Shown piece after piece: positions 1-38,469 of a DNA stretch of 38,690 nucleotides. How positions within the stretch are numbered: the first letter of the stretch is position 1; each line of letters begins with the position of its first letter. The DNA comes from Myxococcales bacterium. Its GTDB lineage: Bacteria; Myxococcota; UBA727; JABDBI01. The position numbers and the translations under genes were made by a program. Where the stretch lies: positions 1 through 38,690 of the forward strand of contig CANFCB010000009.1 of the NCBI GenBank assembly GCA_947445025.1, given 5' to 3'. The notes beneath the pieces were generated by a model, which was given only the letters and a program-made list of their open reading frames with translations, was not told the DNA's origin and ran no database searches.

Positions 1-289
1 GTAGGGGGATTTTCTCGTCGACACCGTCACTCTTAAAAACAAACTTCTTAAAATGCTGGTCCGACAACCCAACAAATTGAATCAGCTGATTCTCTTCAAG
101 AGATTTTATGGCGCGTCGCAGCGTACTAACACAAATACCCAACTGCAAACTTAACTCTTTTTGATGAATAACAAACTCGCCATTCACAGCTCATGGCAAC
201 AGCGAAAGCTCTGCCCAAACAAACTTGGCGCGTAGCGATAGCTTAGAATTACGAAATATGTCTACGGGAATACACACTTAATTTGTCAT
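1..289 (-). pseudogene. Decayed copy of small winged-helix protein gene (partial at window edge)
   Basis: This stretch aligns without gaps to the intact winged-helix gene at 22552-22863 (offset 22574). I count 26 differences in 289 bases. The start codon (ATG read from 289) and an AGGAG ribosome binding site are kept, but codon 4 is TAA where the intact copy has AAG, and a second in-frame TGA (complement of positions 192-194) replaces the CGA codon in the intact copy's LLPRG segment. The rest of the reading frame is open up to the window edge, where the C-terminal codons run off. The copy is therefore a recent pseudogene, or at best encodes an internal fragment. The function of the parent is not known beyond likely DNA binding. 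Confidence 0.88.
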
Positions 290-452
290 GAACACTCCTA
301 AGCTTTTTTTAAAAAGCTTTACAAGCAGAACCGGAGTGCTAATTCTCGCCCCAGTTCTGAGATGAACTTGCCGCGCCTTAAATTTTTTCGGATTAGGGGG
401 CGCGGTATTTTTTGCCGCAACAGCATGCTGCGGCAATCAATAAAAACATCAT
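290..452 (-). promoter_or_regulatory. Structured leader of the decayed winged-helix gene, copy 1
   Basis: Read on the minus strand toward the start at 289, this leader holds four hairpins. They are TTGCCGCA/TGCGGCAA (412-436), CCGCGCC/GGCGCGG (371-405), AGAACTGG/CCGGTTCT (327-358, with one G-U pair on this strand) and AAGCTTTTT/AAAAAGCTT (300-319). The ribosome binding site (complement of 293-298) is complementary to 333-338, giving CACTCC/GGAGTG, which competes with the third hairpin. The intact copy has the same arrangement. Promoter not identified. Confidence 0.6.
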
Positions 453-560
453 AAATTAAAAAGCAAATAGAAATCAACAAGAATTCAAAAAATAATTTAT
501 TATTCAGATTGAGCGCCATTAGGCGTGATTTTTGATAGCCTGGCGGCCTTGGCCCCGGGT

Positions 561-1210: not shown

Positions 1211-1418
1211 CCTTAGCCGGCAATGCTATACATATGTGGTGAACTTAAAGCAATTGGCTCCTAAAAAATCGGTAGAAGTGATTTTGCACCACGCCGAAGG
1301 ACGACCTGAAACAATCAAATGCCTCAGTTAATTTACGCTTGCCAGCGTAAATTAACTGACGAGCATATTTAATGGTTTAAGTCCGGAACGGCGCTGTAAC
1401 GGAGAAAAAGCCATAACA
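1211..1418 (+). pseudogene. Fossil of the 3' end of an aconitase gene
   Basis: From 1234 to 1322 the plus strand reads as the C-terminal region of the intact aconitase encoded at 36193-38469 (VVNL, QLAP and VILHHA segments). I count 11 differences in roughly 88 aligned bases, with no gaps. After a 20-base insertion (1323-1342) the match resumes as LTDEHI, a TAA stop, then WFKSGTAL and a second stop. Weak similarity continues to about 1418 and back to about 1211. Only the last 50 to 60 codons are present, so the piece cannot encode an enzyme. It lies on the same strand as, and just after, the Cys-rich lipoprotein gene. Confidence 0.85.
1325..1358. repeat. Perfect 15-bp inverted repeat inside the aconitase fossil
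   Basis: CAGTTAATTTACGCT (1325-1339) and AGCGTAAATTAACTG (1344-1358) are perfect reverse complements around a TGCC loop. The right arm is the diverged aconitase coding sequence. The left arm lies in a 20-base insertion absent from the intact gene, so the palindrome arose by inverted copying of the neighbouring sequence. It is not followed by a T-run, so it is not a classical terminator. Confidence 0.85.
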
Positions 1419-22495: not shown

Positions 22496-22575
22496 AAATC
22501 CCCCTTTTTCTAAGGGGGATTTAAGAAGTTCACCCTCGATTATTTTTGGATTTAGTCCCCCTTGGAAAAAGGGGG
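22496..22575. repeat. Pair of GGGGGATTT-type palindromic repeats
   Basis: AAATCCCCCTT and AAGGGGGATTT form a perfect 11-base-pair hairpin with a 5-base loop (22496-22522). A second hairpin, CCCCCTT/AAGGGGG, spans 22557-22575 and is followed by TAGGGGGATTT. Such elements are dispersed in many bacterial genomes, and when read through they yield the protein tail PLPPFSKGD, as here at the end of the winged-helix protein. The start of the window (GTAGGGGGATTT) is the edge of another copy. Confidence 0.8.
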
Positions 22576-22863
22576 TAGGGGGATTTTCTCATCGACACCA
22601 TCATTCTTAAAAACAAACTTCTTAAAATGCTGGTCCGACAACCCCACAAATTGAATCAGCTGATTCTCTTCAAGAGATTTTATAGCCCGCCTAAGCGTAC
22701 TCACACAAACACCCAACTGCAAACTCAACTCTTTTTGATGAATAACAAATTCGCCATTCACACCTCGTGGCAACAGCGAAAGCTCTGCCCAAACAAACTT
22801 GGCACGTAGCGATAGTTTAAAATTACGAAATATATCTATGGGGATACAAACCTTGTTTGACAT
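22552..22863 (-). CDS. Small winged-helix DNA-binding protein
   Basis: I do not know its specific role. The 103-residue protein has a helix-turn-helix/winged-helix region: LSLRAKFVWAELSLLP, then a glycine-containing turn, FVIHQKELSLQLGV and STLRRAIKSLEENQLI. This resembles the HTH_36 type found in replication initiators and phage or plasmid regulators, but here it is alone. The last nine residues (PLPPFSKGD) come from a dispersed palindromic repeat that the gene runs into, so the original C-terminus was probably lost. CCGGAG lies seven bases before the ATG. A decayed near-copy starts at 289. The gene and its structured leader lie as an island between panD and an FHA gene. Confidence 0.75.
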   Translation of the reverse strand: MSNKVCIPIDIFRNFKLSLRAKFVWAELSLLPRGVNGEFVIHQKELSLQLGVCVSTLRRAIKSLEENQLIQFVGLSDQHFKKFVFKNDGVDEKIPLPPFSKGD

Positions 22864-23118
22864 AATTTACTCCGGACAAAGCTTTTTAAAAAAAGCTTTA
22901 CAAGCAGAACCGGAGTGTTAATTTTCGCCCCGGTTCTAGTGATAGACCTGCCGCGCCGTACTTTTGCGAGAATGGGCGCGGCATTTGCTTTGACGGGCAC
23001 CGTGCCCAGCAACCAAATACATAAACATAATAAATTAAAAGCTAATTTAATGGCAATACGTAAGTGGGATTTATTTTGTCGACATTGCAGCCTTCGCTGG
23101 CATAACGACCCCGGGTAA
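22575..23118. repeat. Duplicated winged-helix/leader element, copy 2 (intact)
   Basis: This is the intact counterpart of the element at 1-560. The left side ends in the palindromic repeats at 22496-22575. The right side shares CCCCGGGTAAC with copy 1 and then diverges. Copies are on the same strand, about 22.5 kb apart. There is no transposase in or near either one. Confidence 0.75.
22864..23007 (-). promoter_or_regulatory. Structured leader with mutually exclusive pairings, copy 2
   Basis: Reading toward the start at 22863 on the minus strand, hairpins are GGGCAC/GTGCCC (22995-23007), TGCCGCGCC/GGCGCGGCA (22949-22983), AGAACCGG/CCGGTTCT (22906-22937) and AAAGCTTTTT/AAAAAGCTTT (22878-22899). 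The Shine-Dalgarno CCGGAGT (complement of 22869-22875) is fully complementary to ACTCCGG in the 3' part of the third hairpin (complement of 22910-22916), so it can form only when that hairpin opens. The pairing pattern is kept in copy 1 despite sequence change. This has the layout of a translational switch, with ligand or trigger unknown. Confidence 0.6.
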
Positions 23119-36192: not shown

Positions 36193-38469
36193 CTAATGAT
36201 GCTTTTGTGCCAAATAATTAAGCGCAGAGCCTGCCTTAAACCACAAAATCTGCTCGTCAGATAAAGTGTGCTGACATTGGATTGTTTCAGTACGTCCGTC
36301 GGCGTGGTGTAAAATCACCTCGACCGGTTTTTTGGGAGCCAATTGATTTAAGTTCACCACATCGACTCTATCTAAGGCTTCAAATTTGTCGTAATCAGCA
36401 GCATTGATAAAAGTCATGGGTAAAATCCCGTGTTTTTTCAAATTGGTCTCGTGAATACGAGCAAAACTGCGCGCGATAATTACTTTGCCACCCAGGTGTC
36501 TTGGCTGCATCGCGGCATGTTCTCGACTAGAGCCTTCTCCAAAATTTTCATCGCCAATTACCATCCAGTCTATGTGTTGGCTTTGATAGTGACGGGCAAT
36601 GTCAGGATAGGATTTTGATGGCGAAGTTGGATTGGTAACATCGACGCCATGGCCAGTTTCACTGCTAAAAGCGTTGATAGCTCCGATGTAGGTGTTGTTG
36701 GAAATCTGATCCAAGTGTCCTCGGTATTTTAACCAAACGCCAGCTTGAGAAATGTGATCGGTGGTACACTTGCCCTTGGCTTTTAAAAGCACGGGCATGC
36801 TCATGAAATCTTTGCCGCTCCACTTGGGAAAAGCTTTGAGTAAAGCAAGTCTTTGGGAGTGGGGATCGACTATCACTTCGACTAAATCAGCATTGGCCGC
36901 CGGTGGTTCATAACCGGTGCGATCGATTTTGAAGCCTAAAGCAGGCAAAGCATCAGAAGCGGGGATGGGTAATAAAACTTCAACACCCGCTTCGTTCATG
37001 AGTTTATCTTTTAAGGGGTTAAAAGATAATTTTCCCGACAAGGCAATGGCAGTGACAATTTCGGGGCTCGCTAAAAAAGACAAAGTGGCGCGATTGCCGT
37101 CGTTACGACCAGGAAAGTTGCGATTGTAAGAACTGATGATAGCGTTATTTTCGCCTTTACCGATATCGGTTCGATGCCACTGCCCAATGCAGGGTCCGCA
37201 GGCATTAGCGAGCAGAACGCCGTCGATGTCGGTAAGTTGCTTCAGCAATCCATCGCGTTCAACGGTGGCGTGAACAGTTTCGCTGCCCGGAGTAATATAA
37301 AAGGGGATTTTAACTTTCAGTTTTGCTTTTGCGGCAGCGCTGGCAATAGAAGCAGCGCGACCGATATCTTCGTAGGAGCTGTTGGTGCAACTGCCGATTA
37401 AGGCAGCTTTGGGGATTTCTGGGTAACCTTCTTTGGCTATTGCTGATTTCATCTCGCTAATGGGTCTGGCTAAATCCGGGGTATGCGGACCAACTATGTG
37501 AGGCTCTAGGGTATTCAGATCGATATGAATCACGCGATCGTAAAATTTTTCCGGTTCGGCATAGACTTCTGGGTCGGCTGTTAGAAAAGATTTAAAGTTG
37601 TCAGCTAAATTGGCCCATTCGCCACGATCGGTTGCTTGTAAATATTGCGACATGTTGTCGTCGTAAGGAAATACGGAAGTGGTTGCGCCATGCTCAGCAC
37701 CCATATTGCAAATGGTGCCTTTTCCCGTCGCTGAAATGCTATGGCAGCCTTCGCCAAAAAACTCGACGATACAACTGGTGCCGCCTTTCACGGTCAAAAT
37801 TCCCATGAGTTTTAAAATGACATCTTTGGGCGAAGTCCATCCTGAAAGCGATCCGGTCAGTTTCACGCCAATCACGCCAGGCCAGCGCAAGCTAAAGGGC
37901 TCACCGATCATGACGTCGACAGCATCAGCACCGCCAACTCCGATGGCGATCATGCCAAGCCCGCCGGCGTTTGGCGTATGCGAATCAGTTCCGAGCATCA
38001 TGCCACCGGGGAAAGCGTAATTTTCCAAGACCACTTGGTGAATAATACCAGACCCGGGTTTCCAAAATCCCATGCCGTATTTGTTGGCAGCGGTTCGTAA
38101 GAATTCATAAACTTCGTGATTTTCATTGAGGGCATTTTTTAAATCAACTCCAGCGCCTCGTTCTGCTTGAATCAAATGATCGCAATGAATAGTCGTCGGC
38201 ACGGCTGTTATGGGCTGGCTGGCGGTCATGAATTGCAAAAGAGCCATTTGTGCGGTGGCATCCTGCATGGCCACGCGATCGGGAAAAAAATTAACGTATG
38301 ATTTGTGCCTGAGCAATTGATTGCCATCTTCGTCAGTGACTTGATTCATGTGACCAACTAGAATCTTTTCCGCAAGCGTTAAGGGGCGATTGAAATGCTG
38401 GCGCGCTTCTTGATATTTATTTTTGATTTTTTCGTAAGCGTTCTGGATGAGTTTAATTTCGTTGGTCAT
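36193..38469 (-). CDS. acn: Aconitate hydratase, mitochondrial type
   Basis: The enzyme isomerises citrate to isocitrate in the citric-acid cycle, with a [4Fe-4S] cluster in the cytoplasm. The 758-residue chain has the cluster cysteines in SCTNSSYEDI and ACGPCIGQW, and substrate-site segments TIHCDHLIQAE, GTDSHTPNAGGLGMIAIGVGGADAVD and GDENFGEGSSREHAAMQPRHLGG. The last is the swivel-domain serine region. I start at ATG 38469, with AGGA about nine bases upstream; the ATG at 38484 lacks a ribosome binding site. The start overlaps the end of comEC by 17 bases. A fossil of this gene's 3' end lies at 1211-1418. Confidence 0.96.
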   Translation of the reverse strand: MTNEIKLIQNAYEKIKNKYQEARQHFNRPLTLAEKILVGHMNQVTDEDGNQLLRHKSYVNFFPDRVAMQDATAQMALLQFMTASQPITAVPTTIHCDHLIQAERGAGVDLKNALNENHEVYEFLRTAANKYGMGFWKPGSGIIHQVVLENYAFPGGMMLGTDSHTPNAGGLGMIAIGVGGADAVDVMIGEPFSLRWPGVIGVKLTGSLSGWTSPKDVILKLMGILTVKGGTSCIVEFFGEGCHSISATGKGTICNMGAEHGATTSVFPYDDNMSQYLQATDRGEWANLADNFKSFLTADPEVYAEPEKFYDRVIHIDLNTLEPHIVGPHTPDLARPISEMKSAIAKEGYPEIPKAALIGSCTNSSYEDIGRAASIASAAAKAKLKVKIPFYITPGSETVHATVERDGLLKQLTDIDGVLLANACGPCIGQWHRTDIGKGENNAIISSYNRNFPGRNDGNRATLSFLASPEIVTAIALSGKLSFNPLKDKLMNEAGVEVLLPIPASDALPALGFKIDRTGYEPPAANADLVEVIVDPHSQRLALLKAFPKWSGKDFMSMPVLLKAKGKCTTDHISQAGVWLKYRGHLDQISNNTYIGAINAFSSETGHGVDVTNPTSPSKSYPDIARHYQSQHIDWMVIGDENFGEGSSREHAAMQPRHLGGKVIIARSFARIHETNLKKHGILPMTFINAADYDKFEALDRVDVVNLNQLAPKKPVEVILHHADGRTETIQCQHTLSDEQILWFKAGSALNYLAQKHH

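Follow-up and report, generated by a model that had tools for sequence, protein, structure and literature searches.

A dispersed leader RNA ahead of initiator-like DNA-binding genes in one family of Myxococcota, most likely switched by a small RNA from the opposite strand

Does the leader of a small winged-helix gene in a Myxococcales bacterium fold as an RNA switch and, if so, what would throw it? The question was raised by an earlier note on a stretch of 38,690 nucleotides (hereafter the window), which described a hairpin at 22906-22937 competing with the ribosome binding site (RBS), and a second copy of the same arrangement. We found these details as described: AGAACCGG/CCGGTTCT lies at 22906-22913/22930-22937 and forms on the minus strand 10 pairs, AGAACCGGGG/CTCCGGTTCT, one of them G-U; ACTCCGG (minus strand, 22916-22910) is fully complementary over its seven bases to the Shine-Dalgarno sequence CCGGAGT (minus strand, 22875-22869); and copy 1 (window 1-461, minus strand) has CACTCC/GGAGTG, together with a hairpin whose T-G pair is kept only as minus-strand RNA. 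Absent from that note were three further hairpins (P1, P2 and P4), about 10 further copies in the genome, leaders in other genera, and the signature of an antisense promoter and terminator.

Aligned copies of the leader share a single order: sense promoter, P1, P2, P3, P4, Shine-Dalgarno sequence, gene. The corresponding features of the window are:

23051..23056, minus strand: sense -35, TTGCCA (TTGCCA-N18-TATTAT in 10 of 12)
23027..23032, minus strand: sense -10, TATTAT, of the same promoter (10 of 12)
22989..23013, minus strand: P1 hairpin, near the predicted start, with apical CA-YGN-UG and a stem that covaries among copies
22949..22983, minus strand: P2 hairpin, with near-invariant stem TGCCGCGCC/GGCGCGGCA and a hypervariable 17-nt loop (22958-22974)
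22906..22937, minus strand: P3 hairpin, 10 pairs, the hairpin first described
22910..22916, minus strand: anti-Shine-Dalgarno ACTCCGG, within the P3 3' arm
22877..22900, minus strand: P4 hairpin, AU-rich, between P3 and the Shine-Dalgarno sequence
22869..22875, minus strand: Shine-Dalgarno sequence CCGGAGT, alternative partner of the P3 3' arm
22552..22863, minus strand: winged-helix gene, 103 aa, weak HTH_36 match, nearest PHROG a DnaD-like helicase loader
1..461, minus strand: copy 1, with leader at ~284-461 and pseudogene remnant at 1-289

The P2 stem reads TRCCGCGCC/GGCGCGGCA across aligned copies, and P4 comes close to a perfect palindrome. Copy C4 has GGAGTCGAGA/TCTCGACTCC in place of much of the P3 stem, with pairing kept. 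A leader peptide, judged by eye, was rejected, as the ATG preceding P2 lacks conservation.

The source assembly (G000; 1.09 Mb in 43 contigs) contains 12 matches to the gene including the query, the other 11 at 86-94% identity; many of the copies end at contig ends, as expected of repeats. A search of G000 with an RNA model returned 10 full leaders before the 103-aa gene and two that are partial or gene-less. Several cassette copies are pseudogenes or lack the gene, and the copy 1 gene is a pseudogene with two stops, while the pooled dN/dS of 0.16 among G000 copies indicates purifying selection on the protein. The neighbours of the 103-aa gene in the window are panD/prmA. AlphaFold models the winged helix confidently and the C-terminal part with low confidence; Foldseek with this model gave generic winged-helix matches only, none with E below 0.001, and added nothing on function. 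The 3' end of the gene continues in frame into a GGGGGATTT-type palindromic repeat (window 22500-22600; protein ...KIPLPPFSKG), a similar insert, KIPLNPPLAKGEEKA, lies inside a protein of class C from a second genome, G007 (L115 1642-2127), and relatives in a third, G005 (L140, L142, L162), contain other in-frame repeat inserts, all reminiscent of Rickettsia palindromic elements. Another dispersed G000 repeat forms an 88-nt inverted repeat pair in the window (1234-1321 / 36275-36362), 89% complementary and 35 kb apart.

By sequence comparison, the leader is a genuine folding RNA, conserved in evolution and present in many copies within a single family of small-genome Myxococcota. A covariance model built from the G000 leaders alone (R1) identified a leader in G007 (Myxococcales bacterium nzgw262, a different genus of the same family as G000), 20 nt upstream of the gene for a 30%-identical homolog. 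Structural alignments were made by hand, with N padding and bulged letters dropped, because MAFFT misaligned P1; pair counts on such alignments lean toward the given structure, and the counts are not independent since homologous rows are related, but with that reading 18 of 30 pairs change on both sides in 14 leaders from G000 and G007, with 92.6% of cells pairing as against 38-43% with slid partners, all 10 P3 pairs change on both sides in 19 leaders, with 98.4% of P3 cells pairing, and across the 14- and 19-leader sets 93-94% of cells pair as against 34-45% for slid partners. The sole conserved unpaired motif in the 19 leaders is UGUCAA, 3' of P3. Free loss of pairing in homologs, which the earlier note had named as the mark of chance, is not what we see for P3, which is kept across copies through double-sided changes. 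Covariation rules out chance pairing for P1-P3; for the RBS pairing, absent from some families, chance is less fully excluded.

Models R2 and R3 identified further leaders in G007, G005 and G003, that is, in three other genera of the same family (taxonomy below phylum is taken from genome labels). No credible leader was found in other families among 195 Myxococcota genomes; matches in G009, G015 and G188 look like chance. Most of the 13 loci held out of R3 building precede an open gene, and two, G005 C42 and C118, look broken. The P1 apical motif is conserved across two genera, and its CA-YGN-UG form was not seen in the leaders of G003, G005 and G000 contig C15.

The genes behind the leader encode DNA-binding proteins of ~100-285 aa that fall into several groups: HTH_36 proteins in G000 and G007 class B; proteins of G007 class C and G005, which share 41% identity; and those of G007 class D (the leader being recognised by eye) and G003. 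On G000 contig C15, and twice in G007, the leader instead precedes a gene whose product joins an ORF6N domain to a DnaA C-terminal DNA-binding domain (L156 ~1045-1840; L157; L158). This diversity behind one leader indicates that the leader is common to unrelated initiator-type proteins. The winged-helix proteins weakly resemble replication initiation proteins in PHROGs (phrog_270/186-like), and the similarity of leader-borne proteins to RP-C falls below the curated cut-off.

G007 copies adjoin mutS-like and fmt-like genes, and from such housekeeping neighbours on draft contigs the copies are apparently chromosomal. Searching plasmids and phages with the winged-helix gene by tblastn gave no match, the plasmid and phage collections contained no near relative of the winged-helix proteins, and no plasmid record matched the genes well; IMG/VR contributed one weak relative, 38% identical to the winged-helix domain (L097 5001-5195). 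A phage or plasmid origin of the window copy was rejected on these tblastn and IMG/VR results. The ORF6N part does match plasmid proteins, but no plasmid record covers the whole ORF6N-DnaA_C fusion. Units of G007 class C (L111, L113, L115, L117) are ~640 bp long, with sharp common ends that suggest mobility as a unit; they start at TTTTAGAAAAATTC in three copies and end within the last codons, the stop codon being supplied by the flank. Other leaders stand without an intact gene (L082 ~980-1080, L075 ~850-1005, L123 1501-1605), one of them beside a tRNA gene, which suggests decayed cassettes or solo RNAs. A recurring motif, approximately CAGTCA..CCGATAG, is found upstream of leaders in G003, G005, G007 and G000 C15 (L101, L100, L091, L079, L123, L156-L158), sometimes as part of an inverted repeat; it is a possible operator.

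The leader has a second signature, on the opposite strand. In nearly all intact leaders, TTGACA or TTTACA is followed at the homologous place, after 16-18 nt, by TAnnnT, and most leaders have 49-57 nt between the start predicted by this promoter and the end of P2. The features predicted for the window are:

22897..22902, plus strand: predicted antisense -35, TTTACA (TTGACA in most relatives), complement of the conserved UGUCAA
22919..22924, plus strand: predicted antisense -10, TAATTT, spacer 16, in the P3 loop
22931..22992, plus strand: predicted antisense RNA, consisting of a 5' tail complementary to the P3 5' arm, a link, the P2' hairpin and a U-rich end

The G000 antisense promoter, TTTACA-N16-TAATTT, is weak (single-locus P ~0.15-0.2), and in the held-out loci the -10 is mostly not significant alone. 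Since the leaders share ancestry, UGUCAA could also be conserved for another RNA reason. The flank of P2 is U-rich on the antisense side only, with 5.3 of 8 positions (4.5 in held-out loci) as against 2.3 in the background and 1.3-1.6 on the sense side. The antisense tail in G007 class C has T at 4 of 8 positions, and the P2' loop of 16-22 nt is large for an intrinsic terminator. Wobble pairs also separate the hairpins: P1 and P3 together have 25 G-U and 4 A-C on the sense strand, whereas P2 has no G-U and 8 A-C (Fisher P 1.3e-5, for cells that are not independent), and A-C on the sense strand in P2 means G-U on the antisense strand. From these signatures we infer the existence and ends of the antisense RNA.

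The P2 loop and the P2-P3 link are the parts that an antisense RNA would use for recognition, and they vary more than any other part of the leader, with 0.44 and 0.48 differences per site in G000 and 0.28 and 0.32 in G007 class C. Raw silent divergence, derived from dS, is ~0.23 in G000 and 0.14-0.19 in G007 class C (dS 0.16-0.22), which puts change in the P2 loop at roughly double the pace of silent sites. In G007 class C the remainder of the leader, counted from P1, has 0-0.10 differences per site; the P1 region of G000, with its covarying stem, varies too (0.33). Comparison among copies and genomes establishes this hypervariability of the P2 loop, as it does the sense RNA structure and its covariation, the dispersal, the constraint on the protein and the link to initiator-type DNA-binding proteins. 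The layout had been suggested to be that of a riboswitch, thermosensor or small-RNA target; the best fit of the three is a small-RNA target whose RNA would be encoded in cis by the opposite strand, and we rejected a metabolite riboswitch, which is disfavoured by the lack of an Rfam match and of a conserved aptamer core, by UGUCAA being the only conserved unpaired motif over 19 leaders, and by the hypervariable P2 loop.

We examined the second fold by computing mRNA structures at 37 C with the antisense footprint blocked. The predicted antisense 5' end in G000, CGGUUCU, copies the P3 3' arm and starts inside the complement of the P3 5' arm. Blocking the footprint freed the P3 3' arm, which then paired with the ribosome-binding region: in G000 through ACTCCGG/CCGGAGT or AACACTCC/GGAGTGTT, in G007 class C through a long interrupted helix across the Shine-Dalgarno sequence and start, and in G005 through another helix. 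The mean cost of opening the RBS rose by +3.3 kcal/mol with the footprint covered, and by ~1.1-1.4 when the footprint stopped 4-8 nt short; in the held-out loci the mean was +2.5, with 8 of 13 above +1, and the short footprint alone already gave +1.5. Against shuffled RBS sequences, the P3 3' arm pairs more strongly with its own RBS (combined P 2e-4 to 2e-3). The 7-bp anti-Shine-Dalgarno pairing itself was reached by dinucleotide shuffles in 9 of 300, and the P3 3' arm/Shine-Dalgarno pairing is only 5 bp in copy C4. The RBS switch was not seen in G007 class D; it is marginal in G003 and class B, and copy C4 shows it in reduced form. The proposal of two mutually exclusive folds, one hiding the RBS, is therefore supported in silico in several gene families with unrelated sequences (G000, G007 class C, G005), though not in all. 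Given this dependence on family, the second, RBS-hiding fold probably exists but is not constant across the leaders, and the evidence for the RBS pairing is weaker than that for the P3 hairpin.

Most likely the leader acts as a switch that responds to a tiny RNA transcribed from the opposite strand, in much the way that plasmids hold down their own copy number. We consider it probable that the window contains one copy of a dispersed cassette, made up of a leader and an initiator-like gene, that is controlled by a cis antisense RNA switching between the P3 and RBS folds. Such a cassette would consist of a sense promoter, P1-P4, a Shine-Dalgarno sequence and a gene for a replication-initiator-like DNA-binding protein, with an opposite-strand promoter across P3 producing an antisense RNA of ~50-65 nt that would run back through P2 and end at the P2 hairpin. 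When the antisense RNA is scarce, P3 would form and the ribosome-binding region would be relatively open. When it is abundant, it would bind its own mRNA via the copy-specific P2 loop and P2-P3 link, and its 5' end would displace the P3 5' arm; the freed 3' arm would then pair with the ribosome-binding region, reducing translation. The switch itself we infer with moderate confidence.

Known systems offer parallels. The earlier note knew of no matching family, which holds for Rfam, where the window gave nothing above gathering and chance-level matches only with E up to 10, as did the relatives; the layout, though, resembles plasmid ctRNA control of rep genes. In repABC plasmids of alphaproteobacteria, the ctRNA (RepE) is 50-59 nt long with one stem-loop and lies opposite the repC leader; the RBS is free in its absence, whereas its presence makes the leader refold and lowers repC expression, and it is an incompatibility determinant (PMC6090056, PMC10194956, PMC2783167). 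The likeness would lie in a predicted short, one-hairpin antisense RNA opposite the leader of an initiator-like gene and in the two alternative mRNA structures predicted for some of the leaders. By contrast, the Myxococcota cassettes are dispersed, multi-copy and apparently chromosomal, have a leader with P1-P4, encode short winged-helix or ORF6N-DnaA_C proteins rather than RepC, and have an antisense RNA that is predicted and would block by RBS occlusion, whereas repABC forms a new terminator. RNAII of pMV158, a small antisense RNA with a 5' tail, one hairpin and a U-rich end, inhibits repB translation (PMC4485353). The predicted Myxococcota RNA has the same three elements, set against an initiator mRNA, but the loop of RNAII is 6 nt and of minor importance, whereas the P2 loop is 16-22 nt and hypervariable, and pMV158 is a plasmid whereas the Myxococcota copies are apparently chromosomal. 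The Myxococcota leader resembles both in layout and is a member of neither, since it has no Rfam match, its proteins are not RepC, no plasmid is recognisable and its antisense RNA is so far predicted.

The role of the protein could be read differently. A module like type I toxin-antitoxin systems, in which antisense RNA silences a harmful DNA-binding protein so that the cassettes persist and spread as selfish units, is compatible with cis antisense control, and we regard it as unlikely without dismissing it. Chromosomal type I systems likewise consist of dispersed small genes under antisense control, here predicted, and the numerous short intergenic units of G007 class C, which stand alone and have sharp ends, the antisense layout, the pseudogene copies and the purifying selection on the protein all fit. 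Type I toxins are classically hydrophobic, and the Myxococcota proteins are not small hydrophobic toxins. They are DNA-binding proteins of 100-285 aa, as against chromosomal type I toxins that one source gives as typically under 60 aa (PMC11264685).

The initiator-like domains, and the copies that are broken or reduced to solo leaders, might instead mark remnants of integrated plasmids or phage replicons, a rep gene and its copy-control leader that persist in the chromosome but serve no function today. We think this improbable: dN/dS of 0.12-0.16 among paralogs argues for current function, as do compensatory stems and P2 loops that change faster than silent sites, and the winged-helix proteins have no near relative in plasmid or phage collections.

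Improbable as well is a cis-regulatory RNA that works with no antisense partner, a protein (for example, the gene product) or a ligand binding P1-P3 and switching the leader between its P3 and RBS-occluding folds. The strong conservation of the sense structure, the P1 apical motif shared by two genera and the conserved, unpaired UGUCAA would suit it, but it leaves unexplained the opposite-strand -35/-10 pair at fixed spacing, the U-rich P2 flank on the antisense side only and a hypervariable loop on a near-invariant stem; moreover, the P1 form is not seen in G003, G005 and G000 C15, and an aptamer-like conserved core was not found. Least credible by far is a dispersed repeat whose palindromes act in DNA, as operator or mobility hairpins, with RNA folding incidental: P4 is palindromic and the unit recurs across the genome, but the P1 and P3 wobbles, G-U far above A-C, fit sense RNA, and the leader lies directly before start codons, including that of the unrelated ORF6N-DnaA_C gene.

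Antisense control of a dispersed cassette thus remains the reading that we favor. More tentatively, and at somewhat less than even expectation, we propose that the cassettes form an undescribed class in one Myxococcota family, dispersed and apparently chromosomal, in which one leader and antisense module has been placed on unrelated initiator-type proteins (several winged-helix groups and an ORF6N-DnaA domain IV fusion). P2 loops would diversify under selection so that copies coexist without cross-silencing, as in plasmid incompatibility, and the proteins may act on replication of the chromosome or of mobile elements. If this is true, a single window would have led to a new RNA family with strong covariation, and to plasmid-style antisense copy control acting on many small, dispersed, apparently chromosomal genes. 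The P2 loops would provide a natural series of sense/antisense pairs within one cell, and the DnaA domain IV and initiator-like winged helices pose a testable question: are these selfish or regulatory cassettes acting on replication in small-genome Myxococcota?
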